Source: Ptychodera flava
Lineage: Eukaryota; Hemichordata; Enteropneusta; Ptychoderidae
Assembly (NCBI RefSeq): GCF_041260155.1
Contig: NC_091932.1
Span: forward strand, 10,396,304-10,460,303
DNA length: 64,000 nucleotides
Direction: 5' to 3'
Shown here: piece by piece, positions 2,671 to 55,572 of the stretch
Numbering within the stretch: the first letter of the stretch is position 1
Layout: each line of letters opens with the position of its first letter
Program-made: the position numbers and the translations under genes
Notes under the pieces: generated by a model
Database searches by the model: none
The model's input: only the letters and a program-made list of their open reading frames with translations
What the model was told of the DNA's origin: nothing

Positions 2671-3255
2671 CCTAGAACTTTGTCGGCTCCTTTGACGCGT
2701 AAACTTCCGATAATGAAAACGTTAGACGATACAAATGGAATTAACTTGAAAAACTTGACTGTAGAGTGTCCTTTGGATGAATGCAGCGGTTATAATTACA
2801 AATTGTTTGCTTCGATCTGAGGGAGATGATGTGTCACTTGTGTCAATGACGTTTAGATACTGTCGCCATCTTTAATTTCTACCAAACTTGCTTAGAAATA
2901 GCAATACGGCCGCTTAAAATGATGCAAATGCAGAGCTCATTGTTCAAAAGAGGCTTTCATGGATAAAAAACAGAGGGATGAAATTTTCAAGAAAGAAAAA
3001 TCGCGTATTTATCAATTCGTGCCGCTCCAGGCAATAAATCACATGAATATCAACTTCTTTACAACAATTATGAAGACCACTTAGGAAAATGTTATTTCTT
3101 TCACCGGAAATACGTCATCACAGGTCAACTGGAAGAGCAACTTTCAAGTCGTGTGTGGATATCACCGGCGTCTTCGCTGATAAGTCGATCTGTAGACCTC
3201 TTCCGAGACGCACTGAGCGAACAGTCATAATGTTTACTAGCTAACAACAATCAAA
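2671..3255. promoter_or_regulatory. Divergent ARFGAP1/TAF2 promoter region
   Basis: The start codons of ARFGAP1 (minus, 2670) and TAF2 (plus, 3256) face away from each other across 585 bp. The region lacks an obvious TATA box. At 3104-3120 there is an ETS-type CCGGAAA followed directly by TACGTCATC, which contains a CRE-like half site; both are common in housekeeping bidirectional promoters. Promoter function is inferred from position and these motifs only. Confidence 0.6.
3230..3244 (+). promoter_or_regulatory. Four-codon upstream ORF in the TAF2 leader
   Basis: An ATG at 3230 opens a reading frame of four codons that ends at TAA (3242-3244), 11 bp before the TAF2 start. The TAF2 ATG has A at -3. 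Whether the uORF is transcribed depends on the start site, which cannot be seen. Confidence 0.4.
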
Positions 3256-6200
3256 ATGTCCAAAGTCACTAAGAAGGGAGACAAAGGATTCGAGACTCCT
3301 CGACCTTTTAGATTATAAGTATCGATTTTGTGATTGTTTTTGTTTATTTCTTCAATCTGCTTTGCTGATGAATTTATGGAGGTAGTAGCTCCATTAGATA
3401 TTTTCGTACTCCGTACAGGGTCTGTGTAACCACGTGATTGCAGATCATTTTTCGCCTTGTATTACAGAAGTTATTTGAATAACCGTTAATGTAGTTTCAT
3501 TGAAAGGATGAAAATACAGAATTGGCTTACATGTAAGACTAAGTGTGCAATCATTGATACAAGGGTCAGTCAAGTGTAACAAGGCAAGTTGCAAGCAGTG
3601 GTTGAAACTCTGTAATTTTGAGAATATACTTGAGAATTTACAACATCACCTCAAGATATTTAATCCTTTAAGGTCTGTAGTTTTTTACCTATATATCTTT
3701 CGTCCTATATGCCCAGAAGTGAATAATTTTGTCAATATTGACAAGCAGAATACTGATATTTCAACATATTCGTCGAGTTGGATTGATAACAGTAGGAATG
3801 GGGTAAGAGAGAGAGCCTTCTCCCATCTACCTCCATGCAGTAGGTGATTAATACATTGAATTGCAGTATTCAAGTAAAACGTTACACCTGACTCTTTAAT
3901 GATGTAGCTTGCTAATGAAAAGGCACCTTTCATAAGATTTACATAATAATTCCTTTGCACAAGTTAGCAGTACCAGTACCTAACCATTGTTTTCCTTTTT
4001 CTCTTTACGAGTCATCAGATACTGTGTATCACAGGTGTAAATTTCCAGAGGAAGTCAATTATAGTAAGTACTCATTGAGATAAAAAATATTGCTTTATTT
4101 TTGTTTTTGCAAATTCACTTTTAGCAATTTTCAAAATAATATATCATCCAGAATATTAGAACCATAATTGTTGTACAACTTTTTTTGGTGTTGGTAATAT
4201 GACTTGCCTTTCCACCGAAAGATTCAGATGAAAAAGTAAAGCATGAAAAGGATTGTCAAGTTTGCTGTTCATATTTTCTCAATAGTAAAAACAGTACTAC
4301 TGTCTATTCTCTAAAAGTTTTGATGATTACATGTACATGTTTTTATTACCATGTGTTTTAGTTGTGCACATGAAAGTATATTGCTCAATGCAAATGCTCT
4401 ATTCTATCCTGTATGTTGAGAATTTGCTAGGTATTTGACTGATCTTGTACCTTTGTACTGTGTACTAGGGAAAGTAGTTTTTGTTATGTAGCATAAGTAA
4501 CATGCAAAACAAAGGAGATATCTAAGCTTGACTAGGCAAGTTTTACTGCTGACGAGATTATATTTGCCATATGGGACTGCTGTTGAATTTAAACATTTCT
4601 AGCACATACTCTTACTACATGTATAATAAATTTGTTTAGTATACCTTTGTTCCTCGTAATGATTAGGTAGACTGAAATATATCTTTTAGCTACTTCATTT
4701 GGAATTTTAGTCCACCAATTCATACAGAAATTTGATTGTTGCAATGAAATAGATTAGTAAACATAATCTTTCTTATCATTTTCCAGGGTTACGTGGAGCT
4801 TCATCTTATTCCAAGCAAACCAAATCTCAACAAAATCAAGTTGAACAGCAAACAGTGTAATATCCTTTCACTCAGTAGTGACTAGTCTCAGCCGATATTA
4901 AATGAAATGTGACATTGCTTGGATAAGTATGGATGTACAAACCATAGTTTCAGTGCAAGTGTGGCACTAGCAGTACATCCATCTTCTGCAAAGATTGATC
5001 AATATTCATTAGTCTTTCACCGCAATGAAATACACTTGGTTGATATACATGTGTATTCATCTATGTGGATTGTCTGATCTTGTAACATATATTATTGGTA
5101 TTCAAGGAGCTCTCACCATACATGTATATTAGAGTGACTTTGCTTGAAAGCATTGGTATCTGTAATTGTATAATTCAGTTTTACATTCATTAAGTTAAGA
5201 TTCAAATAGCACTCGAAAATTAACCATGATAGCTCAGTGCCTCGTTATACCACTTTGTTCATGCTGAAGATTAAATTGACAATTCATAAAAATCAAACAA
5301 ATTATGGAAAATTGAGACATTCATGAATGAAGGTAGTATTCATTCCTGCAAATTATCAGACTTCCATGAAATATTTTCATTCTTTCAATTGAATGAAAAG
5401 CAGTTCCGTGACTTACAATACACCGTAGTACAGATATACGCATGTAACTGTAGCCGTTGTATCATTGAATCATGATTTAGTCAGAGTGATCACTGAGTAT
5501 ACTCTCTGTTTTCCACTAAAGGAAAGGCAAGTAGTGTATTTGGCTTTATAAAGATTTACCAAATGTAACACTTTTATGAAGGTTGGTAACTTTCAAATAT
5601 GAGTGTTTCAGTTTCACATAAATACTGCAAGTTATACACCCTTGACTTTAGATTTGAACGGATCTACAGAGTGTGCATCAATGATATTTGGGAAGCTTCA
5701 TTTCTGTACAATGATCCAACTCTAGCAATCTGTCAGAGTGATGCTAAACAGTAAGTATTCAAATCAATGTTCTGAATAGATCATTTGTCAAAGAAGTGCA
5801 TGTCATACAGATGAATAGTAAAATGGATGAGAAGAACCAACTTCGTAGAAATGAACTTGGCATGCTGTATTGTAGTACAGTATTTGGTTGCAGTGAAAAT
5901 CATGAAGTAGTTGAAATCCATGAAGGCATATACCAGTGCATGTGGAAAGTACTTAACTTTGCAATGGTTTCTAAACTCTTTACAGCTTCTTATTGGTTGT
6001 GTAGCATGACTGTATCCTTCTGTCTTTACATTCAATCTCACATTTGTAACAATTGGGCTTAGCATGGCCATTAAGCAAGTTGGCATATGGCAATGCTCAG
6101 CTTTACCACTACTTTAGGCCAGATAAATGAGATTTGTTTGTGATCAAGGAAAGCTGCAGCATTGTGAATATTGCTCCTTTACTCTTCTCAAAATCTGTCA

Positions 6201-9200
6201 TGTTTACTCCGAAGCAGCATACTGATAAACATAAATGAGCTGTTGCACATCTTGCTGAAAATCAATAATCAGACATGTTATCAATATGATAATTTGAAAA
6301 AAGGTGGGAACATATTTGAAAAAAGTGCTCTGGAAAAAAGAAATAAATTTGAAAACTTTTGTGTTTCTTCCGCAGACGTAATTTAAATTTCTTTTCAACA
6401 TGTCACTCTGCTGCGGTGAGTTCAGTGGATGCAGACAGTGGCAATGGAGAGCTGACTATCAGAATCCCACAGGAAGCAATGCATCTTGTTCAAGGTAAGA
6501 GGAGTCTACAGCATTATGATGTAATAATGTGTACATGAAACACTGATGTGTACAGTGTTTAAATCTTCAAGCAAATGCAAGCTTAAACGTTTCTATTCCA
6601 AAATGACATAACTAACATACATAACAATGCATATTGTACTGCTATGAGTCTGAGTCAATTGCCTGGTTGGGAATGAGTTGTAATCTAAAGGAATGGAGAG
6701 AGATATCGATGCATTCATGGTTTAGTGCCACTCCATTTTGCTCTATCCTGGATGTGTTGTTTTTTTCAGACATGAAACCACTGAGAGTTAGCATAGAATT
6801 TTCACTGGAAACACCACAGGGTGGGATTCAGTTTGTGGTCCCTGAATTGGATGGCACTATGGCAGAGGTGAGTTCATGCTTAGATCATTTCATCAAGTCA
6901 ATTACATTATTTTTCAGTCATAGCTAATATATTTGTGACAAAACTATGTACATATAGCAGATGTGGCACAAATTAAATGTCATAACAGTTAAAGGGCACC
7001 ACTTTTGATGATTTTTTTCACAATATTTGTTTTGTATATCAATTTCAAGTTCCTGTTCTTTGCCCAAAAGCATGTTTAAACGCTTACTGTTTGTCAACAC
7101 AGTGTATGTACAAGCAAAATCTAGTGATTTTGTTTACATTTAAATTCTAACCCAAACCAGAATTAGCTTGTCAACAATAACAATAGTAATCTACACATGT
7201 ACGTGCTTAGTTGAGTAGTTACTTTGTATCTCAATAGGCTTCAATTGCCAGTAGGACAAGAAACTGCAGAGGACATTAACCCTTGACTACCTTGAACGCC
7301 GGATATATCCGGCGCCATATTGAATTACCATATACCTTTAGTGCCGGAAATATCCGGCACAGTTAAATAGGCGTATTTGCTTCATTTTTGTCCCTAAAAA
7401 TCCCATAATTTTGGCGTCGGCACGCAGCGCGACTAAGATTGATGTATACCGATCTGGCCTGAATTTGATTGCGCCCCCCTTACGTCCGAGTATGGCCAAA
7501 ATCCGGAAGCAAATGTCGTGACCCATGACCTCGACCCTGAAAGGTCAGGCTGATCACAGAAGCGTCGCGCTGATTGTTTACAGTTTTCAGAAGTACGGAC
7601 GATCGCGAAGATTTTTATGGTTTGTTTTTTTTAATGAAATGAAATGTTTATTTATTGAAAACAAATGATTAATATGTAAATATGTTCTATTAACAGCAAT
7701 ATTCTGTGAATGAAACTGGAGGAAATATAATTTTTTACTATAACCCAGTGAAATTTTATAGCAGCCATATTGTCAATATGACTGGTCACATGACTGGTCA
7801 TGTGATTGGTCATGTGATATGTTGTTCCCTAAAATGTATTTTTAAATATTGTGAATTATTTTTTGATAAATCATAACCATTTTAGATGCATGTTTCTGCA
7901 AGGAAGACATAAAGCAGGTGTTTACAAATAAAATGTGTTGATTTTCAAATACAGAATTATGTCAGATGCTGATGTTTGTGGTTCATTTACTCTGCCTTTT
8001 GTGAGAAAAATCTTAAACAGGTACATCTATAAATAAAGTAAAGGGTAGTTATTATCACATATATGTAAAGACAAAGCCCTGAAAATTGCAAGTGTATTCT
8101 AATTGCGTCATTTTATGGATTCAAAACACGTCCTGATGCTTCAAATATTCATATTCTTTGCCAACTCTGGTCATATGTGTCATGTGACCAGTCACATGAC
8201 CTGGAAATACAAAACTTATGAAAAAGTGGGAAATTTCATGCTGATTCAGAAAATATATGGTTTATTGGTACTTACTTAAATTTTACTCTAAGCAGTGTTC
8301 ATTCAATGACCACACCCAAGATTTTATCAATATTTACATAAGGGGCCTGGTATATAGGAATACATCGGCCTGGTAGTCAAGGGGTTAAAAACAAAAATAC
8401 TCAAAAAAATCATCAAGTTACACCCGTTAGTGATGGTTTGACAGTGAAGCCATGTAATTTTCTCTCAGTAAAAGTGTCTTTTTGGGTGAAGTGTTCTGCT
8501 GTTTACAGTTTGCTTCATTTCTACATCCTTACTTCTGCAAACATCAAAATAACAGTGTAATACTTTTAATGAAAAAGACAGAGTTATGCAGCAGATCAGC
8601 AATTTGATGGTATGAAGTTTTGATCTCATCTGAAACCCATCTTGTTTTCACAGAGATCAGCTCACATGTTCACCTATGGCTATGAGAACTCAGCCAGACT
8701 CTGGTTTCCCTGCATTGACTCATACTCAGAGCCCTGTACCTGGAAGTTAGAATTCACTGTGGATGCCTCCATGACAGCTGTGTCATGTGGAGATCTCATT
8801 GAGACTGTCTACACACCAGACATGAGAAAGAAGACTTTCCACTATGTACTGAACATACCAACAGCAGCACCAAACATTGCACTGGCTGTGGGGTAAGTCA
8901 TCAATACAGTGACTATAATAGTTTGTTAATGAAGTAACCCAATTTCAACCAACATTATTACAATGTCTGGAATCTCTGAAAGTGAGAGGAGAGCTTACAT
9001 TTAATGTACAAACCTTATATCCACTTTGCTCGTTGCATAAAGGTTAGTTGAAAATGCTTCATGCTCGCTCCGTCAGAACATTTACTCTAACACAAAGGCA
9101 TGGACTTTGTAATGTTTGGCAACCAAACTTCTATCGATGTGAAAGAAAGACAGATAACAAGACACAGACAAATGATATCAGAGATAATGTTAAATCTCAG

Positions 9201-12200
9201 AAGAAATAGTATGGTAATATTTATGTCTTCAGGAGAGTTGTTTTGGTCACAAATATTCCCGTCAAATAAAATAGATTTTATTTTTCAAATGAGTCTGTAT
9301 TTTGGAATAAAACTGTAATCAAAGTTGATATATTCTGTGTCAATGGTAAATTTGGCAATGATAGGTTTTTTGGCAAAACTCTAAGAATTTTCACTTTTAA
9401 GTTAACTTTTGAAGCAGTGTAACTTGAGTATTGTGTTAGAATACCATACAATAGAATGGGCAGTTGGGCCTTTGTGAGTCTCTCCACTTACTACATAAAT
9501 TGTAAATAATAACTTCTTAACATAAATTCTTACAGAAAAAGAATCAAAAGAGACTCATTCTCCCATTCTCCTTTTCTCCTTCAGCCCATTTGAGATATTT
9601 GTAGATCCATATATGAATGAGGTGACTCATTTCTGCCTGCCACAGTTGTTACCAGTGTTAAAGCACAGCACAGACAGACTCCATCAGGTAATGACATATC
9701 TCTTTGTTTGCAGTATCAGTGCAACCATCTTCAATCTTGCCAAAGTAGTTGGTGATAGCTACATGAGCTTCCCTAAGAATATTGCAGCTGCAAAAAAGTT
9801 TCATTTTTGTCCTGAGACCTGTTGAATTCAAATTCAAAATCTAGCAACCTTTGATAAAGGTTTCATCCATCTAAGCTTATACAATATATTAGCAATTTTA
9901 TTAATTAATAATGAAAATCAATGAGAGTTCAATGCTATAGATACTCCACTATAGTAGGCTTATTAGTTTTGTACTAGCATTGATTATCAAACAAGGGACT
10001 GAAACTACATTGAAGACAAAATAGGAAAAAATGTACAAGAATACAGTAGGAGAGAGTGACATTGCATCATAGTGACGTATATTCAGTGAGATCAATGTGT
10101 GGTTGAAAAAAATGATCTGTGGATTATTATCCAACTAGTAATAGTGTAATGTTGGATAAAATGGAGTATATGAAGAAGTGGCAAATTTCCATAAAAACAA
10201 TTAGTGTGTTCTGCAATGTCAAGTGTAAAGCATACCATAGAGCATTCTGCTACTGGGTAATGAAAACATCCTACAACTGGTTGTGAACTTTTGGGGTGTG
10301 TATATTTTTCAAAATGTTTAGAGTCAAGTCTGCACTTGGTAGACTGGATTTATAGTCAGGATTGGTTTTTTGTCATCACAGGCATTTGAATTCTATGAAG
10401 AAGTTCTTGGTACTCGATACCCATACAGCTGTTACAAACAAGTTTTCATTGACTGTGCTTACATAGAAGCTGCAGCCTATGCATCTATGACAATATTCAG
10501 GTATTTTTATCTTATCGTATCTCACAGCACTTGTTTCTTTTTCAACCAAACATTTTACAAGACAACACATTCTTTCAACTTGGCTGGAGCCTGTACTCAA
10601 GTTCATGTCAGTCATCAAAATCAAGTCCCCACAAATCTTTATCTCAGTTTTTTGCTAATTTTGGAATACTCTATGTGAAAAGTTGGGGCATTACTGAAAG
10701 GTTTCAGCCAAGGATGTTGATATACTGGTAGATGTGTCTGGCAAGGAAGCAAAACCCTAGGGTTTCTGTTGAAATAATGATTTAACAAAAGGGGGAAAGT
10801 TTGTGGCAAGGAAGTCATTTCTCTACTTCCTATACACAATGTTATTGATTTCCACCATAAAGACAATAACCAATACAGATTAAAACCACTCTGTCTCAAT
10901 CACAGTTACTTTCCCCTCATATTTTTTCAGCACTAACATCTTGCACTCCAGTCATGTCATTGACCAGACTTTCACATCACGTCGTCTGATGGCACACGCT
11001 GTCGCCCAGCAATTCTTTGGTAGTTACATATGCATGCAGTCATGGCCAGATGCCTGGCTTATCAAAGGTATTGCTGAATATCTGAATGGTCTCTATATCA
11101 AGAAGAAGTTTGGTAACAATGAATACAGGCACATGATCAGCAAGGTAAGAAATTTAATTAGACATTGGGTTATTCACAACATGGTAATGTATTGATGGCA
11201 TGGGTATCTAGGTATGACGTATTAGACGAGGCAGAGCCCAAATGTAGTTACATTTGCATATAACCATATTATTGTACACCTTTTATATCAAAACATGAAA
11301 TGATGAGGTACTCTTTTGTAAAAAATTTGGCACTTTGTGTTTTGTACCTACAAGCAGATGGATAAGCATGAGAACTGGGAGTGATATTGCTACAGATATG
11401 ATTTTCATACTACAAAGAATAGACAAAATGCACACACACACACACACATACTCTTTTCACAGCTCCTTGGCTCCTGGACATCTAAATTTGCATATGTAGA
11501 ATTTTACACTCTCAGCGCGTATGTTGTACAAAATGTATGGTAGCGTATTGTATGATTTGAATGCCATAGGTTACAACAATAAACCTGTAATGATGCTAGA
11601 AAAGTAGAACACTAGGATCATGAATATCTCTGTTTCTTATCATCATCACCAGGGCGTTTTCCTTTCTTGTTTTTCAAAGTTGCCTCAAGAATTCAAATTG
11701 TACTGGCATGGAGGATCAACCCATCATTCAATAGGAAATGCCAGAAATTTAACATACATATTATGTACTTCATCTGTGATAAGTAGCCTTTGTGTATAGT
11801 GAGAAAAAAGAAGACTTGTAAATAACACGTTTGTAAACTTGTAAACAAATCAAAAGATGTCAGTTTTCACATGTGAACAGATATGTGTTGAAGGAATTGA
11901 GACGATGAAGAAAAGAATGGTGTCAAGTCTCCTTCGGCAAAATGTTAGGAAATGTTTGAAACTCTCAGTTTTGAAGTGCAGACTGCAATAAGAAGTTTAT
12001 AAATGAATAAACATTATTTTTCTGTAGATTCTGAAAAGAGTTTGCAATGCAGAGGAAGAATACGGAGGATTGATTCTCTATCCAAATGCCAGTGGCAACA
12101 AGACAGAATCCACCAGCTCCAATGGTGGAAAGTTACATTTTCCGAGGAAACACTCACATACAACATCTTGGAAGTATGCCAAGATGATTCGACTGAAGGC

Positions 12201-15200: not shown

Positions 15201-18200
15201 ACTTTGACAACTGATGTGAATTTTTTTGTTTTGACAGGTACATTATAAATTTAAGTTATTTAGGAGTGCCTGTTTGATAATCATACAAAATTGACCACAG
15301 GTATCTGATAATATTTGCATATTCTATATTCCAGGCCATAATAGCTCTGGAAAATTTTCCCAGTCTAGCAACAAGAACTGTTCTGTCAGATATCTTGGAA
15401 TATGAACAGTGTTTTTACAAAGTTAGGATGCAAGCAGCACACTGCCTGGCAAAGGTCAGTATTTATTATCAACATATCATTAATAAAGGTGATAAATCAA
15501 AGGGTCCATAAATGAAAAATTCTTTGTCAGTGTTCAAAGATTCAGTCAATGAACAGACTTCAGATTTTTTAGTCCCCGCGGATGAAGTCCGGCAGGGACT
15601 TATAGATTGGGTCCCGTCCGTCCGTCCGTCAGTCCGCAGCCATTTCTCAGACACTGCTACACAAATTTTGTTCAAACTTGACACAAAGGCATAGCACTAT
15701 GACCTACAGATGCAAATCGATTTATTTTGCGATACGATCCAATATGGCCGCAAGGTGGCCATATTTTTGCGATTTTTCATGTCTTTGAACCATAACTCAA
15801 ACATCCTTGAACCGATTCTGTTCAAACTTGGCACAAAGGCATAACACTATGGCCTACATATGCATGTTGAATTATATTGCGATACAATCCAATATGGGCA
15901 TGAGGCGGCCATTTTGTTTGCAATTTTTCATGTCTTTGAACCATAACTCAAACATCCTTGAACAGATTCTTTCAAACTTGGCACAAAGGCATAACACTAT
16001 GGCCAACATATGCCTCTCAAATTATGTTGCGATACAATCCAATATGGGCGTGAGACGGCCATTTTGTTTGCGATTTTTCATGTCTTTGAACCATAACTCA
16101 AACATTCTTGAACCGATTCTGTTCAAACTTGGCACAAAGGCATAACACTATGGCCTACATATGCATGTAGAATTATATTGCGATACAATCCAAAAGGGCG
16201 TGAGACGGCCATTTTGTTTGCGATTTTTCATGTCTTTGAACCATAACTCAAACATCCTTGAACCGATTCTGTTCAAACTTGGCACAAAGGCATAACACTA
16301 TGGCCTACATATGCATGTTGCATTATATTGCGATACGATCCAATATGGGCATGAGGCGGCCATTTTGTTGCAATTTTTTCATGTCTTTGAACCATAACTC
16401 AAACATCCCTGAACCAATGTTGTTCAGACATGGTACAAAGGCAAAGCACTATGGCATACATATGCATGTATCAATTAAGCTTGCGATAGGATCCAATATG
16501 GCTGCAGAACTGCCATTTTGTTGGAATTTTGCATGTCTTTGAATCGTAATTCAAAGGTCATTATACCCATTTTGTCCAAACTTGGCACAAAGATCAAGCA
16601 CTATGGCATACATATACATGTCAATTTACTTCGTGACATGTTCCAATATGGCTGCCAGATTGTCATTTTTTGCTCACGTGTTCACACACGTGAGCATATG
16701 GTTTAGCCATGTCTGTCTGTGTGTGTGTCTGTGTGTCTGTGTGTGTGTCCGTGTGTCTGTATCCCCATTATCTCAAAAACGGCTGAACGTATTTCAGTCA
16801 AATTTGGTAGACATCTTCAGAATTTAAATGGCTAGAACTGAAAAGGTTTTGGTGGGCGTGGCTTGCATACTTTTTAATTTGCATAATTAATGATTTTAGA
16901 GAAAACAGATATACATTAAAACAACTGCACACAATTTGATGAGATTTGCTACAAATGTTGATCACACCAAGATATATCAGCAGTGGGAACCATTAAGGGG
17001 TGACGTGAAAGATAGTTGCTAATTTGCATATTTAATGAACTTTCCTAATTAGGGATATATATCTGATTTGACACGATCAAAATTGACCAAACTTGCTAGT
17101 GTATTGAAGATACTATGATACAATATTATTGAAAGTCATTTAGCATTTTCTCTTCAGGTAATTCCTAATTTGCATATTTAATGAACTTTCCTAATTAGGG
17201 ATATATATCTGATTTGACACCATCAAAATTGACCAAACTTGCTACATGTATTGAAGATACTATGATACAATATTATTGAAAGTCATTTAGCATTTTCTCT
17301 TCAGACAATTCCTATTTTGCATATTTAATGAACTTTGTTAATTAGGGATATATATCTGAATTGACTGACCAAAGTTGACAAAACTTGCTACATGTATTGG
17401 AGATATTATAATATAACATTATTGAAAATCATAAAGCATTTTTACTTCAGCCATTCCTAATTTACATATTTGATGAACTTTGCTAATTAGGGATGTGCAT
17501 CTGAATTGACTTGACCAAAATTTATGAAACTTGCTATATACAATAAAGACACTATGATACAACATTATTGAAAGTCATTTAACAGTTTTACTTCAGCCAA
17601 TTCAGAATTTGCATATTTAATGAACTTTCCTAATTAGGGATATATATCTGAATTAACTTGATTGTAGTGTTTGAAACTTGCTGTATACATCAAAGATACT
17701 GTGATATAACATTATTGAAAGTCAAAAGACAATTTTACTTCGGCCAATTCCTAATTTGCATATTAAATGACTTTTCATAATTAGGGATATATATCTGAAT
17801 TGACTTGATCAAAATTAATGAAACTTGCTATGTACATTAAACTATAATACAATATTATTGTAAGTTAGTAAACATTTTTCCTTCTGCCAATTCCTAATTT
17901 ACATATTTAATGAACTTTGCTAATTAGGGATATATATCTGAATTGACTGGACCAAAGTTAAAGATACTATGATACAACATTATTGAAAGTCATTAAGCAT
18001 TTTTTCTTCAGCCAATTCCTAATTTTCATTTTCAATGATATTTTCTAATTGGGGATATATACTGGGATTTACTTGATCAAAGTTGGCAAAACATGCTGTG
18101 TACATTAATGATTATGCCAGGTTAAAACAATATTGAAGGTCATTTCACATTTTCATGTCAGCTAATTTATAATTTGCATATCTAATGAGCTTTCACAGTT

Positions 18201-21200
18201 TGGCATATATGGCTTGAAGGACTTGGCTAAAGGTAATTACACTTGCTTTATAAAGTGGTGGTACAATGACAGCAGTCAAAGAAGGTATTTGTATTCTAGC
18301 TAATTACGTATTTGTATACTTCATGATCTTTTAGAATTAATCGGCGGTGAATATTGTTCATTATGTTGATCGTAATACTTTCAATGAAGTTGCAAACATG
18401 TGCCAAAGGTTCAAATTTACACATAACTGCAATAATAATGAAACACGTGAGCATTTTCAGTTCATATCTGCTTGCTCACGTGTTTACACACGTGGGCATA
18501 TGTCGCAGCGATGTCTGTCTGTCTGTCTGTCAGTCCGATGTCTCAAAAACGGCTTATCAGATCAGAATCAAATCTGGTGCATAGATTCAGTAAAGCAAAT
18601 GGCAAGAACTGATTATTTTTGGTGGGCGCGGCTTGCATACTTTTTGCTCATTTGCATAATTAGTGATTTTAGAAAAAATGGATATACATTAAGAATGACT
18701 ACACACAATTTGATGAGATTTGCTACAAATGTTGATCACACCAAGATATATCAGCAGTGGGAACCATTAAGGGATGACATGAAAGATAGTTGCTAATTTG
18801 CATATTAAATGAATTTTCCTAATAAGGGATATATGTCTGATTTGACTCGATCAAATCGACCAAACTTGGTATGTATATTAAAGATACTATGATTTAACAT
18901 TATTGAAAGTCATTAAGCGTTTTAACTGCAGCCAATTCCTAATTTACATATTTAATGAACTTTGCTAATTAGGGATATATATTTGAATAGACTGGACCCA
19001 AGTTGATGAATCTTTCTACATGTATTGAAGCTACTATGATACAACATTTTTTGAAAGTCATTAAGCATTTTTCCTTCAGCCAATTTCAATTTGCATATTT
19101 AATAAACTTTCCCGATTAGGGATATATATCTGAATTAAATGGATTGTAGTTGTTGAAACTTGCTATATACATCAAAGATACTGTGATATAACATTATTGA
19201 AAGTCAAAAGACATATTTTTACTTCAGCCAATTCCTAATTTGCATATTAAATGAATTTTCATAATTTGGGATATTTATCTGTATTGACTTGATGAAACTT
19301 GCTATGTACATTAAAGACAGTCATTAAAGGCCAGGGCTGGGTATAAATAGCAAGCTGCCCCTGTTGGAGTTAGTTCATGCAAAGCGTGGCTTGGGTAGCG
19401 TCACGCTCGATCGCTCCGTAAAAACCATGCCAAAATGGTCACAGGCGAAGAAACGTAGGCGTCCATGCACATGTACCCAACTATGAATGTCTAGTGATTG
19501 AATATGTAGATAAAATTTTATGATTTGAGCATAAATAAAGCTGATTTTGGTCGATGAATGTATTTCTCTTTGTCTTCAACTTGCGTGGCAAGCGGCCACA
19601 ACAAAGGTCTGCAAGCTGTCAATCAAAAAATGACGCGCTACAGGTGTGAATCGGTAAACGTTTGCGATGTCAACATGTCAGATACGCACAGCCATGTAAT
19701 TAGATGGGGCGACCGCAGTGCAGAGCCGCATGCACAGGCACTCTTTAGCTGGGTAGTCTGCTAAATAGATCGATTTTCAGCTCAATCTATAGATCCCGTA
19801 GTCGATATGCCCACCTATTAAAACACCCATTTAGATTGCAGTGCCGGCATGTCGACTACGGGATCGATAGATCGAGCCGAAAAGCGAGCAGACTACCCAG
19901 CTCGAGCCCATGTGACTGCTAGTATGCCACCCAAGCCATAGCTCGTTCTCGCGTAGACGTCGTACACGCCGCTATTTCCGACCGTTTCTTCCACATTTAA
20001 AGTTCAGATTCAAGTTCTTTTAGATTTTTCTGTCGTGAAAAGTATTATTATTATCGTCTTGCTGTTTTAAAAGATTTTTGATGACCTAAACGACATCGTG
20101 TGTTGCTCCATTGTCATGGAATCTGATGTCAAGGAAAGGCGGTGACTTTTTTCAAGTTGAATAAAATGTCCTTCCTGGTTGCGTCAGTCAATTAATAGAA
20201 ATACTCTTGTTCACAATTGATTAAACCATAGACAGTGGACTGTCTCGATTCTCCCGTCTATGATTCGATATTAACTGACTCATTCTTTCTCTTCTTTGTC
20301 GATCGATGAAAGTATTTTCATCTTCAATACTCAGTCCTAATTTGACAGATGTAATATCCAAACCTATAATGTCATTTATTTCAGACCAATGTACAAAAAC
20401 TTGGTCCGTTCGCCAAAGTACATATCTGACGAGATGTTTTGCGACACAGTGAATAAACATATTCGATGAACAGCCGTACTCTATGCATTAGGGGGATATT
20501 CATGTTGCAGTCTCCTCGGAAAAAAACAGGGGATGTTTAGGCGATAATAAAGGCGATGACTCAGTTGAATAAAAAAACTTTTCGGACATCATATTTTTAT
20601 CTAAGCGTACATTTATCGGTTTGATGTGCGACCGTACGCAGATCGTTCATATTCTCCATAAAACTAGTCAAAACAATTCTGCGACAATGGTGGCGTCTCT
20701 TCGTGAACGTCCTTGAACCCATAGCCGCGACCATTATCTTTTTATGTGTTCGTGGTTGATGATCGGTAGAATTAATGTATCAAAATTTGAAGACACACAT
20801 TATTGAATCCTGTGATTGTTAGGAAATTGACGGTGTGTAGGGACGGTCACAGTCAACGGACCAAGGGAGCATCAGCAGTACGCAGTACATTGCATGCTTT
20901 CTGAGAATGAACGGCGTGTTTCCATAGCTACCATGCGAAATCCGGCTTTGACCAATGTTCCTGTCCTGTTTCGGAGGATAATTTTCGAGCTACGTATATC
21001 TACTGTTGAGGTTCAGATAGCCGAATCTTTCATGTTCGAAAGGCTTATCGATGTACAGAAAATACTAAACTTTTGTTATTAGTTAAACGTTTACATGTAC
21101 ATAACTCACAGCACACGGGGCAAAGCCAAATTACTTACCAGGTTGGAAAATTTCAGCGAGTCGCTCTCACCAGCGGTCGCGAGGAAAAAATACGTCGGTA

Positions 21201-21471
21201 TATCATTGATGCGCCATGTTTATCGTTGTTGTTTGTACGACTAGTTTGAAAGTCATAGACTTTCTTAACGGTGAAATTCATATTGCCATTCAATATTTTA
21301 CGCACTAAGTCACCTGTGCATTTAAATACGTCCATTCGGAAGCAGAAACGTTTACAGATTTTCGATGGTGATAACTAGCTCCAGGCCGTGACATGTCTCC
21401 AGTTACGAAGTTTACCCGATCGTGCACCGTTAAATAAATGTCGGCAAAGTAAAACATCAAATGGCTAGACT

Positions 21472-21539
<68 letters not shown>

Positions 21540-24500
21540 GGTTTATGCAGTCGCGAACTTATCATGGTCTTTAGGATGGATGGATACATTTGCGCTGCAC
21601 AGATATCGAAAATGTACAGATACTTTCCCGAACTTTGACTAATTTTAGAACAAGAGTAGAACAAAACCAAAAGTGTTGAAGTAACTCTTCAGATGTTTGA
21701 TTCGCAAGTTTGCTAAAGATAGATTATACTTACAGAAAATAGTCGCTGTAGTCTTCTGTTCAAAGAAATATGTTCTTCAACATCACGTTTCTTATGATCG
21801 GTGATTTTACATTTTATTTTTTCTCTCAACAAGGTTATAGATTAATGCACCACGGTATTAATTTACGATTAATTCAACGATTTCAGACCGTAATTATTTT
21901 TTTAGTGAGAGGGCTTTTAGTAGTTCTGAAGACGAAACGATCAGAAATAGCAGAGTATCTTGGCAATGGCACGACGTCTACGCTGTTGTTTAGCTGAAAT
22001 GATTGTACATGTACAGTTGAAGCCCGGGCCCCCGGGTAAGCCTAATTCGGAACATAATGTCGTTAGTTGCAGCGGCGTGGTGCTGTACCTTTGTCATTAC
22101 AGTTGAAGTTCACCTGTTATTGCTACAAGCAGCGCACGCTTCGCGAAACGTACAACGCGTTGTTTCTCAGTGTACTGGTCTCGCCGTTATATTCAGTTAC
22201 ATATAATCTGTTATTTGCATGTCAACACATTGGCCTGTTTACAACCTCCTGTGCATACTAATCGTGACCGTAATTTACAAAGACATAAACATTCGATCCC
22301 GCCCGTGAATGTCAAAGGTGAACGGCATTAACTTGATCCCGGGTATCAAGTCCCTGGCCTTTAAGCATTTTTGCTTCAGCCAATTCCTAATGTGTGTATT
22401 TAATTAACGTTCTTAAGTAGGGATATATACTTGGATTTATTTGACCAAAGTTGACAAAACTTGCTACTTTTATTGCATATACCATGATACAACATTATTG
22501 AAAATCATTAAGCATTTTTACTTAAGCCAATTCCTAATTTACATATTTAATGAACTTTGCTTATTAGGGATATATACTGGGATTTACTTGATCAAAGTTG
22601 GCAAAACATGCTATGTACATTGATGATTATAACGGGTTAAAACAATATCAAAAGTCATTTCACATTTCCTGTCAGCTCATTTATAATTTGCATGTCTAAT
22701 GAGCTTTCACAGCTTGGCATATATGGCTTGAAGGACTTGGCCAATGGTAATTACACTTGCTATATAAAGTGGAGATACAATGACAGCAGTCAAAGAAATT
22801 TAATATTTTTATTTCAGCTTATTACATATTTGTATACTTTATGACCTAATCAGCAGTGATTATTGTTCATTATGTTGATTATAATTCTTTCAATGAAGTT
22901 GTAAACATGTGGCAAAGGTTCAATTTTACACAACTGCAATATATAATGAAACACGTGAGCATTTCAGTTCACATCTGGTTCCCCAATATTGCTGCCAGAT
23001 GGTCATTTTGGATTTCTTGATGTCTTTGAGGCTTAATCATATTCAAATATTCCTTATCCAATGTTGTTGAGACTTGGTACAAAGATAAAGTACATTGTAC
23101 TATTGCATACATATGCATGTCTACTAATTTTGTGCTATGATCCATATGGTCAATAGACAGCCATTTGATTTCAATTTGGTGTGAATTTTTTATGTCTTTG
23201 AAACATAAACATAGGTCACTGTCCTTCGATGGACTGATTTTGTTTAAACGTGATATGGCTGCATTCTTGTGCACATTAATTTGTTTGATTATATGATCCG
23301 AAATGGCTGATTACAACAACATACCCGATCCCATACCATTTCTAAAATTCCACCAAACCATGTGTATAGTTTGTGCCATCATGACACTAGAGGCAGTGAG
23401 GGCATCGTTATGTGTGATGTAATCAAAAGTTCCTTCAATGGTCATTACTGGCAGAGATGGGTCAATTTTATTGAACGTTCCTCAGATTACTTTATTATGG
23501 AAGTCACAGGCCTGATGCACACGTTGCATCAATGTCATTCCACAGCTACCTAGACCACAGCTACGTAGACACAAAGATTATAACAAAATGGACATGCGGG
23601 GACTGTGTCATCAATGATGACTTGTTTATCAATGAATCGATCAGTGAATTGTGGAGCTTTCTGTGTCAATGACTGCATTTCATGTATTTATTTCTGAAAA
23701 AGTGTATGAAACTATTACAGAGGGTATGCCTGACAAAACCAATGAATGGAGGGATCCCACCGTGGAAGAGGATATTGTCAATTGATAAGCCAATGAATAA
23801 TATCAAAGTATATAAAGGATCTAAGATATATCATGCCAATATTGATGACTTCATCAATGAATTATGCATAAATCTGTGTGAGCAGGTCATTGAATGGATG
23901 ATTTTCAATCCAAGAATTAATTTGAAACTATTGAGAATGGCACTGATTATGTCAGATCAATATTTTCAGTAGTGGTTGTTCTCTAATTTTTGTCCATGCT
24001 TAGGTGGACTTCTCATTTTTCGTTTCAAATTCATGTGTTCTCTTTTAGGTTGCCAATGAAATGTCAGCCACCTGGACTGGGCACACCGCCATGATGGCCA
24101 TGTTTCGAAAAATGTTTGGATCTTATTCATGTCCGAACATCGTCAGAAGAAATAACTTTTCAAATCTGCAAGGATACTTTATCCAAAAGGTCAGCATGAA
24201 AATAGAACATTTCATGGATAGACTAAAAAAGTTTTGTTGTTTTGCTGATGATGTATCTTTTGTTGATTGAAAATAGAAAATCAAAGCGCAGTTTTTTGAT
24301 GTGGATACAAAGGAGAGTTATTGGCCATTCTGTCCCATTATAAACTCACAAGAGTGACAGTTCATGTACAACTACAAAGTAGCTGTTTGTACATTGATGA
24401 AGGAAAGACAGCAGAGTCTGTGGAGGAAGCAATTTGTAGTTATTGACTTAACATTGCTGTGAATATTAGAACACAGCGTAGTTTGCTACTTTTCTAACTA

Positions 24501-35930: not shown

Positions 35931-36950
35931 TCAACATCTACTGGTTTGAAATACCTGTACGTTATCTGATGCTGATTGGATGACCTGATTAGTTTGAAAT
36001 TTCTTGCAATGAGTGCAGCTCCTCAGTACTTGTGTCAGAGTTCTTCTGAAATTTGTGTTCATGGCGCTATAAATGAGAACATTCCAGAAGCTGTTCGACA
36101 CGGCAAGCCACACCGCCAAGAACACCAGCCACTCTGGCAGGTCATCGGCGTCCGTCAGAGATTTGTAGATGAGTCCAACAGCGTAGGGAAACCAAGCAAT
36201 GATGAAACAACCGCCCACCACAAACATCATCTTGGTTGACTTGTAACTGTTTGTCAGTGAAATCTGTCTGTTATCGTGAAAACCGTTGCTGCTTACACTG
36301 CTATCTCTGATCTGCCGAACATGGCGGCGTGAAATTTGTAAGATTCTGCAATACATTGTCATGATGCACAGGGCAGGCACGAAGATGAAGATCACCGTGA
36401 TCGCTATGGTAACAACATCCTGGTCAGTTGCTCCGTAATTCGGCAAACAGGCCATAATTTTGTCGCTGAAGACAATAAAATCGTCTGGCATGGCGAGCAC
36501 AATAGCCCAGACAATGATTTCCACGGCAACCCATTTCAGAATAATTACAGCTACGACTCTGCGTTCTGTGACCATTAACGGATAGTGCAAAGGACAGACT
36601 ATGGCCACAAAGCGTTCTGTTCCTACGAGTAGGACAGACAAAATTGAAACGGAGGTGAAAATTTGATTGTGTGCCCCCGTTATGAGACACCACACATCCC
36701 CGTAAAACCAAGTACGGCTGAATGAAACACTCAGCGGGAATATTGTCAAAATCCCCACAGCGAGGTCGGAAACTGCCAGCGACATCATGAAATGTTTAGT
36801 GGTCGGTGGAACTGAGGCAAGCCGGCGGATAACTACGATGTTCACGGTATTTCCCAAAATTATGAAAATTGTATTGATAAATATTATGGTTGTCTGAATC
36901 GCCGGCCAAGCTTGGTTGGAGACGTTCATTGATGACAGTTGGATGTCCAT
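35931..36950 (-). CDS. Class A (rhodopsin-like) G protein-coupled receptor, single exon, 339 aa
   Basis: Seven hydrophobic segments and class A landmarks are present: GN34 in TM1, LAVSD62 in TM2, Cys88 at the top of TM3 with Cys168 in loop 2, E112-R113-F114 at the end of TM3, and AWFPY (252-256) in TM6. TM7 has N290-V-L-I-Y294 in place of NPxxY, followed by helix 8 and Cys312/Cys315, possible palmitoylation sites. An N-glycosylation site (NVS at Asn9) is in the short N-terminus. The position equivalent to 3.32 is Asn95, not Asp, which argues against a standard monoamine receptor. The ligand is unknown. A paralog lies 5.7 kb away on the same strand. Confidence 0.93.
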   Translation of the reverse strand: MDIQLSSMNVSNQAWPAIQTTIIFINTIFIILGNTVNIVVIRRLASVPPTTKHFMMSLAVSDLAVGILTIFPLSVSFSRTWFYGDVWCLITGAHNQIFTSVSILSVLLVGTERFVAIVCPLHYPLMVTERRVVAVIILKWVAVEIIVWAIVLAMPDDFIVFSDKIMACLPNYGATDQDVVTIAITVIFIFVPALCIMTMYCRILQISRRHVRQIRDSSVSSNGFHDNRQISLTNSYKSTKMMFVVGGCFIIAWFPYAVGLIYKSLTDADDLPEWLVFLAVWLAVSNSFWNVLIYSAMNTNFRRTLTQVLRSCTHCKKFQTNQVIQSASDNVQVFQTSRC

Positions 36951-38562
36951 GTCGATATATATATTGAGAAACGTATTGCTTCCAGCACAGGTGTTTGGAC
37001 AATTCTCTTCAGCACTTTGCTAGCAACTCTTCCTTCAAAACGATACATTCAAATGAAATTATCCGTATTCCATCCCATAGTTCAAGAGCTGAATCGATAA
37101 ATTATATCAACCAACTATTCTTCCGTGCATTGGCTATAGAATATTATTTATCCACAGAAACGAACCTTCCATATACGAAACTACTTCCAACGATTATCAT
37201 TCACTGAGGATCTGAAGGTGAATCTCCGACGATTCGACGCAGAAACGAGATTCCGATTTCCCTGTGGTCTAATTCCAACGCATCGCACGATGCCAAAATT
37301 TCCGACACTGTTAATAATCCAAAGGTAAACCACCGTTTGGAGGTGGTCCTATTTTTGCCAAATAAGAAATTAAGTAAACCAGCTTTGTGAAAATATTTGC
37401 GGAAGAAACAGATGTTACGCGATCGATTTGGTTATCCTTGTATTACGCAATCAGCGGGGAAATTGGGGCAAAACTGGATAATTCAAAAAAGACCATGTGC
37501 ATCTCGATAGTTTAAATCACCAACAAGGAAGAAATATGATATGATCAAGAGTAGAAAGTATGGTTTGTAAGGTAAATATAATGTATTTTAAAATGACTTT
37601 TGTCAATTTTAACGATGAGACGTCGACGTAATAATGACCATTGTCTTTGTTACATTGATTTAACAAACTTGGGTCTATATGAATTTACAGTCTTTCATTT
37701 CCTTCAGTAAACATTCACCTTTCATACCACCTAACAAATGTCACAATTAAATCGTTGCTTTCATATTTTACTCTGCTTTTCAGGGGACGTATGAGAATCG
37801 CGTACAAAATGATGGTTGAGTTTCATTGAAAAATGCCAAGATTTTGATGGCGGTCAAGGGTACAAAAATAAATCATTTATCCATCTATCTCAGGTGAAAT
37901 GAAGTCTTCGTCATTTTCATATCGTTTGAAGAGTTAATTTCCTGTTCGAATTTCAAGTTTGACGGATTATGTTCATTTCAAGATCATGGTCGGAAGTGGA
38001 CTTGACACCGGTACCGTACAAGGTTGAGAGGCGGAAACATTTGCTAAGCATTCACTCTGTGTTCGTCACGTACTCTCTTCTGTTAATCACACATGATAGA
38101 TGTAGAAGCCACGATAGATTTACAATGGGGCACTACAAGACCTCTAGTTCTCGATCGGTCTTTCATCTGTGAGCGTGAAATGTTCAGGGGAGTTATCACC
38201 AGATTTGCGCAATATTCAGTTAGTTCCCTAGTTGAAAAAACTTCGCTCTTTTTTGAAAAATGAAGTGACCCAATACGCCTTCTCTGACAAAGTACAACAT
38301 ATGAAACATGTCTTGTGAATGTTACAAAAATGATGTTGCCCGCTGTCTTTTCTTTACTGGCAACTTCTCTCCAAGTCAGAGAATTAGCTCGACGAGAGGT
38401 ACCAACTGGATGCTTTAGCTACCACACAGGGACGTCGTAAGATTGAAGTGGATGAAGTGTATTGATAAGCTGTCAGGTGGGACCAACCAAAAGTCTGCCG
38501 AGGCCAGGGGACGCCTAGACTTATAAAAGCCTAAGCCTCCCCTATTAAGTCTAAAGTCTAGA

Positions 38563-45196: not shown

Positions 45197-46112
45197 TTAC
45201 ACGATAACTTAAAAACGCCCGAACAGATTCAAGTCAGATTTGGTAAACAGGTACCATATGCTACTTGCAAGAACTGATTAGATTTTGGTTAGTGTTGCTT
45301 GCATATTGATGAAGTTTATATGACATATCAATTTTTTATATAATGGTTTCCCTATGGAGACGGTAATGGCAGTGTCGACATATATCAAGAAATACTGCAC
45401 AAAATTTCATGAAACTTTTCACAGATGACAATCTTAGAACATTATGGATGATACTGTGAGTGTCATGTCAATTATCTGCTCATTTGCATATTTAATGAAC
45501 TTTTGCAATTAATGACATATCTTTGAAATTCCAGTACCAAATTGGATGATACATACAACAAATATTGATCTGATATAATACTAATTGTACTTAGAAGCAC
45601 TGGGGAATGTCAAGTTAATAAAGAGCTCATTTGCATATTCTATGAAGTTTTGTAATTAGTCATATAACTCCGAAATAAATGCACCAAATTTTATGAAATC
45701 TGCTGCAGATACTGATCCGACAGATATCTGACTGTGTAGTAGTGTGAAGTTAACTAAGGGTCCATTTACATAGTTGATGACCTTTGTAATTAGGTATGTA
45801 ACTCTAAAATTACGGCACCAAATTTGGTAAAACCTGTCACAGATATTGCTGTAACAAATATCTAATTGTGCTATGAAACATTGAGCAGTGTCAAGTAAAT
45901 TAAGGGTTCATTTGCATATTTAGTGAACTTTATAATTAGTTATATTACTCTGACATTGCAGTATTAAATTTGATGAAACGTGCTGCAGATGTTGATCTGA
46001 TAGATATATAATTGTCCCATGAAGCATTGAGCAGTGTCAAGTTAATGAACAGCTCATTTGCATATTAAATAAATTTTTGTACCGGTGATATAGAGTAATC
46101 GTGTACGGTCTT

Positions 46113-53193: not shown

Positions 53194-53838
53194 TGTTATG
53201 TTTCTATAATTTGCACCGGTTACTGTAAATCTTCATTCTAGTAATTCGCCAAATTTCAACATTTCGCCACTTGGGCTTGAATTCCCACGATTTACCGGAG
53301 GTGTAATTCTTCAAAATTGGCGGCAAATTTACATTTTCAAGTCTCTTCTGTTTAAATTCAATGGCAACGCCATTCCAGGCACCCGCATGTCTCGTGAATT
53401 CCTATGATTATGCATGAAATGTCTCACGCAAGGTTGGACAATAGAAAGACAATGTAGTCGAACTTTTATCAGAACTGTAGCTGTTAAGTATCGCTTTTCA
53501 TATTTTCACAGCTTGGATTTAAAACAATGGTGTTGTGACATGTCTCATGCATACTATGTATTAATCATTGTGAAACAAGCGTTGGCAAGTTTGCTTGTCG
53601 ACAAAGTATTGTAAATTTGGGGGTCGGACTTTGGGAGCCTTGGAGTGAGCATATCTCCAGGCTCTCGGAGCTAAGAGTTGCCCCAGGCAGCCATCAGGCT
53701 GACCTGGGGAAATAAAGTTTCGAGCGCAACGTTAATTCCTGTGTCGCCTGATCTATATATTTACTCCATCTACGCGTGGTCAGAAGTTCCCCTTAATCCT
53801 GATTCGGAACTGCTAGAACATTTCATTACAATTTGACA
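53194..53838 (+). repeat. 5' LTR
   Basis: It starts TGTTATGTTTC and ends AATTTGACA. It contains an AATAAA hexamer near 53713 that could serve for polyadenylation. It is about 99% identical to the 3' LTR; one deletion lies in the GGCGGCAAATTT segment. Confidence 0.92.
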
Positions 53839-54928: not shown

Positions 54929-55572
54929 TGTCATGTTTCTATAATTTGCACCGGTTACTGTAAATCTTCATTCTAGTAATTCGCCAAATTTCAACATTTC
55001 GCCACTTGGGCTTGAATTCCCACGATTTACCGGAGGTGTAATTCTTCAAAATTGGCGGCAATTTACATTTTCAAGTCTCTTCTGTTTAAATTCAATGGCA
55101 ACGCCATTCCAGGCACCCGCATGTCTCGTGAATTCCTATGATTATGCATGAAATGTCTCACGCAAGGTTGGACAATAGAAAGACAATGTAGTCGAACTTT
55201 TATCAGAACTGTAGCTGTTAAGTATCGCTTTTCATATTTTCACAGCTTGGATTTAAAACAATGGTGTTGTGACATGTCTCATGCATACTATGTATTAATC
55301 ATTGTGAAACAAGCGTTGGCAAGTTTGCTTGTCGACAAAGTATTGTAAATTTGGGGGTCGGACTTTGGGAGCCTTGGAGTGAGCATATCTCCAGGCTCTC
55401 GGAGCTAAGAGTTGCCCCAGGCAGCCATCAGGCTGACCTGGGGAAATAAAGTTTCGAGCGCAACGTTAATTCCTGTGTCGCCTGATCTATATATTTACTC
55501 CATCTACGCGTGGTCAGAAGTTCCCCTTAATCCTGATTCGGAACTGCTAGAACATTCCCTTACAATTTGTCA
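54929..55572 (+). repeat. 3' LTR
   Basis: It starts TGTCATGTTTC and ends AATTTGTCA, followed by the CTTC target duplication. The single open frame in it is identical to the one in the 5' LTR and is not a gene. Confidence 0.92.

Follow-up and report, generated by a model that had tools for sequence, protein, structure and literature searches.

The TAF2 gene and its introns

The stretch of DNA analysed here (the window) comprises 64,000 nt of contig NC_091932.1 from the hemichordate Ptychodera flava and, judged by protein similarity, contains an animal TAF2 gene. The first 132 residues read from exons starting at 3256 matched human TAF2 in the PDB sequence set (E 6.3e-54), as did a longer exon-peptide string (TFIID subunit 2, E 5.3e-278), and a third string also matched human TAF2 (E 3.6e-111); these matches bear out the gene identity proposed in an earlier sequence-only reading of the locus. 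Pfam assigned the domains Peptidase_M1 (E 1.8e-11) and Peptidase_M1_N (E 1.3e-5, with a score exactly equal to its cut-off), and aminopeptidases were also among the PDB matches of the longer string, in agreement with a Peptidase_M1-type fold, which we take to be a feature of TAF2.

3256–28647, plus strand: mapped part of TAF2, from spliced alignment, with 24 introns

The gene model was built by spliced alignment to the human TAF2 protein, which placed introns between 3315 and 28584 at costs that favoured GT-AG ends (GT-AG 12, GC-AG 16, AT-AC 18, any other pair 30). Twenty-two of the 24 introns read as GT-AG, two of them set by hand, and the exceptions are introns 1 and 3, both AT-AC. For intron 20, where the alignment gave TA-AA ends (25268/25940), the GT-AG pair 25267/25948 was entered manually; intron 17 (15455–24048), which no alignment spanned, was likewise placed manually according to its flanking sequence. 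The end of intron 10 was placed at 12027, rather than at the 11354 of another alignment run, because more of the human protein was then aligned. A Ser/His-rich frame that reaches 34794, outside the mapped part, may be the C-terminus of TAF2. Intron 17 (8.6 kb) holds tandem-repeat arrays at 15665–19293, with units mostly of ~147–150 nt, and a repeat unit similar to these by eye recurs at 45741–46077.

Boundaries of intron 1

3256–3314, plus strand: TAF2 coding exon 1, ending with TT of codon 20; aligns with human TAF2
3315–4008, plus strand: intron 1, 694 nt, phase 2, AT-AC termini, U2-type features; from alignment and boundary scoring
3315–3320, plus strand: 5' splice site ATAAGT, matching the U1-pairing consensus at +2 to +6, with A at +1
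3319–3320, plus strand: nearest GT (taa/GTATCG), 4 of 9 consensus positions; as a donor it leaves an in-frame TAA
4004–4008, plus strand: 3' splice site TTTAC, from boundary scoring
4009–4063, plus strand: TAF2 coding exon 2, starting with G of codon 20

Spliced alignment selected AT-AC ends for intron 1 despite their higher charge relative to GT-AG (18 versus 12). We then scored against human TAF2 all in-frame, stop-free boundary pairs with a start in 3258–3344 and an end in 3940–4063 (n = 1968). The top score of 144 was shared by the AT-AC pair 3315/4008, which restores the conserved protein, and by its one-base shift, the TA-CG pair 3316/4009, which yields an identical protein. Among AT-AG pairs, the best (3315/4011) stays in frame but drops a residue (RFHQ) and scores 128; the best GT-AG pair scores 71 with loss of the conserved peptide. 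Canonical introns were also sought more widely: eight GT/GC-AG pairs give a frame that is open from the ATG at 3256 into exon 2, and all eight lose the conserved block, the best of them again scoring 71.

Most of what the sequence-only reading had said of these boundaries stands. ATAAGT and TTTAC lie at 3315 and 4008 and form a top-scoring pair; joining 3256–3314 to 4009–4063 shows codon 20 to be split by the intron, after its second base; and the GT at 3319 does leave an in-frame TAA when used as a donor. Its statement that the peptide is rebuilt only by 3315–4008 goes slightly too far, as the TA-CG pair gives the same protein.

When all end costs were made equal, in a run over 3200–6560, introns 1, 3 and 4 each moved by one base, to TA-CG, AA-AA and TA-GA, respectively; protein similarity by itself is therefore insufficient to fix intron ends. 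As AT-AC and TA-CG tie on protein, the choice of AT-AC rests on knowledge of splicing, by which a TA-CG intron is implausible. Given the dinucleotide content of the window, AT and AC would be expected jointly at one fixed boundary pair with p ~0.006.

Compared with the window at E 1e-3, intron 1 matched only itself, and no RNA structure was found around its donor (3280–3360, z −0.48). Searches of Rfam at gathering thresholds gave no matches, no tRNAs were found, and one scan of viral_contigs gave a single pattern match and no relative.

Intron 3

4860–5659, plus strand: intron 3, AT-AC termini; from alignment and boundary scoring
4860–4868, plus strand: U12-type donor ATATCCTTT, 9 of 9 consensus positions
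5638–5646, plus strand: branch-like ACCCTTGAC, 7 of 9 positions, its A 14 nt from the 3' end

The more interesting addition beside intron 1 is intron 3, an AT-AC intron with a minor-type donor that is absent from the sequence-only reading. The donor ATATCCTTT occurs as a single exact copy in the window, both strands counted, and sits at the boundary that restores SKQC-RIYR. Among 4098 boundary pairs, AT-AC 4860/5659 and AA-AA 4859/5658 tie for the top score (192). GT-AG pairs reach at most 170, with 4855/5651, which replaces SKQCRIYR with an in-frame SKQFERIYR. The nested GT-AG donor at 4855 (aca/GTGTAA) appears weak by eye; the junction may be used by both the U2 and the U12 spliceosome. Four of the 22 GT-AG introns hold matches to the U12 branch consensus at 7 or 8 of 9 positions, and the assignment of intron 3 to the U12 type thus rests mainly on its donor.

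No human counterpart of intron 3 was found in the literature searched, which was mostly open-access main text; the sole paper there to combine TAF2 with U12-type or minor introns, PMC8280824, mentions TAF2 once, for intron 1.

Spliceosome type of intron 1

3980–3984, plus strand: CTAAC, candidate branch site (use inferred); the A (3983) lies 25 nt ahead of the 3' end of intron 1
3989–4005, plus strand: polypyrimidine tract, 16 of 17 pyrimidines

The donor of intron 1 is of a form compatible with U1, having A at +4 and G at +5, lacking TATCC and agreeing with the donor consensus at five of nine positions. Its calculated pairing with U1 (−4.5 kcal/mol) is weaker than that of all 22 GT donors (−5.3 to −11.9) and stronger than that of intron 3 (−1.4). 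The pyrimidine fraction of its tract (0.94) is the joint highest among the 24 introns, and no strong U12 branch motif lies close to the 3' end, the best being a 6 of 9 match 25 nt away. The sequence-only reading had likewise assigned intron 1 to the major spliceosome, an assignment with which the donor, the pyrimidine tract and the class published for human TAF2 intron 1 all agree. We put at about 90% the probability that intron 1 truly has AT-AC ends, is excised by the major (U2) spliceosome and is probably the ortholog of human TAF2 intron 1.

During such removal, U1 would bind TAAGT (positions +2 to +6) even though position +1 is A, U2 would use a branch site near 3983, helped by the strong pyrimidine tract, and the first A and last C would take the place of the first and last G that usually interact in the second step. 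Splicing of intron 1 is probably constitutive. The sequence-only reading had suggested a regulated splicing step, for which we find no support here: retention of intron 1 ends translation from the ATG at 3256 after 20 codons, as read from the sequence, and this stop says nothing on regulation.

Removal by the minor (U12) spliceosome instead is highly improbable. Three points speak for it: the AT-AC ends themselves; the motif GTACCTAAC, which agrees with the U12 branch consensus at 6 of 9 positions; and, two introns farther downstream, another AT-AC intron whose donor is of the U12 type. However, the U12-type donor ATATCCTT, matched at all nine positions by intron 3, is matched by intron 1 at only four, within the range of 3 to 6 found for the 22 GT-AG introns of the gene, and intron 1 has G at +5. 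The branch-like A is 25 nt from the end of the intron as against 14 nt in intron 3, and branch matches of this kind tell little in either direction, given the GT-AG introns that reach 7 or 8 of 9. The strong pyrimidine tract, and the classification of human TAF2 intron 1 as major in PMC8280824, also argue against the minor spliceosome and for the U2-type reading.

It is less likely still that the true first intron has GT-AG ends and follows another first exon, so that 3256–3314 is not spliced directly to exon 2. Mechanical enumeration yields 99 first exons, each running from an ATG to a GT, that continue in frame into exon 2 from AG 4011 or 4018, but their donors agree with the consensus at no more than six of nine positions. 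Moreover, 3256–3314 encodes the conserved block KKGDKGFE(S/T)PRP, and the alignment with human TAF2 runs from it straight into exon 2. There is no GT between 3266 and 3318, and hence no GT donor after this block and before the TAA; for the same reason, none of the 99 alternatives can carry the block. That two assembly base errors made ATAAGT...TTTAC out of GTAAGT...TTTAG is barely credible, since, although a G at 3315 and a G at 4008 would restore a standard GT-AG intron with the same boundaries, it requires two independent errors at exactly both partner bases, and human TAF2 intron 1 is also reported as AT-AC in PMC8280824.

Probable conservation and possible origin

AT-AC introns make up ~0.01% of human U2-type introns, and from 0 to 0.07% across the species listed, in the IAOD table (PMC7367187, section 17). 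In a survey of animals, fungi and plants, the partner aligned with an AT-AC pair was again AT-AC in 967 other sequences and GT-AG in 157, figures given without a division into U2 and U12 types (PMC7072748).

In PMC8280824 (Fig 5E legend and section 10), the first intron of human TAF2 is listed among the AT-AC introns of the major (U2) type and was assayed by RT-PCR; that paper reports no response of this intron to CENATAC depletion. The intron described here shares with it the gene, the intron number, the AT-AC termini and the major type; the human intron belongs to another animal and is known to us by its published class rather than by sequence or codon position. On the grounds of gene, intron number and type, the two are probably orthologous. 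As the human intron is already published as U2-type AT-AC, intron 1 is no new kind of intron; it has the look of an ancient peculiarity that was conserved, and a novel mechanism need not be invoked.

Intron 1 also has AT-AC ends and G at +5 in common with the U2-type AT-AC introns of sodium channel genes, another gene family than TAF2, and has in addition A at +4 and T at +6, two changes credited in section 16 of PMC2831892 with improving U2 recognition. It shares AT-AC ends with U12-type AT-AC introns, whose donor is present in intron 3; unlike them, it lacks an ATATCC donor, and its branch-like site lies farther off. From sequence, two of the first three introns of TAF2 thus appear to be AT-AC, one of the U2 type and one of the U12 type.

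Section 16 of PMC2831892 proposes that U2-type AT-AC introns arose from U12-type AT-AC introns through a change of C to G at +5, after which +4 became A or +6 became T, and were then trapped. ATAAGT carries all three of these bases; a good U2 donor would hold the same bases anyway, and the motif therefore fits the conversion path without proving it. It is conceivable, if rather doubtful, that TAF2 keeps both AT-AC types in its first three introns and that intron 1 began as an AT-AC intron of the U12 type. It would then have been converted to the U2 type without moving, by changes at +4 to +6 (ATATCC to ATAAGT), before the split between this animal and vertebrates, and would have stayed trapped since splicing would fail if only one of its ends changed. 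As both spliceosome types of AT-AC intron appear to be present, TAF2 offers a good internal test case for the conversion idea of PMC2831892.

The comparison with the human gene suggests that the U2-type AT-AC intron of TAF2 is older than the split of vertebrates and this animal; if so, intron 1 has departed from the GT-AG rule for a very long time. In practice, a gene finder that accepts no ends but GT-AG would cut short the start of TAF2 or put it in the wrong place.

Other features of the window

35934–37019, minus strand: one 362-codon open frame; Pfam 7tm_1 match (E 5.5e-38), the domain of rhodopsin-type 7-transmembrane receptors
53194–53835 and 54929–55569: direct repeat of ~642 nt

The two copies of the direct repeat lie 1.7 kb apart and are 99.4% identical, with 497 nt exactly identical, and represent either a recent duplication or an effect of assembly.
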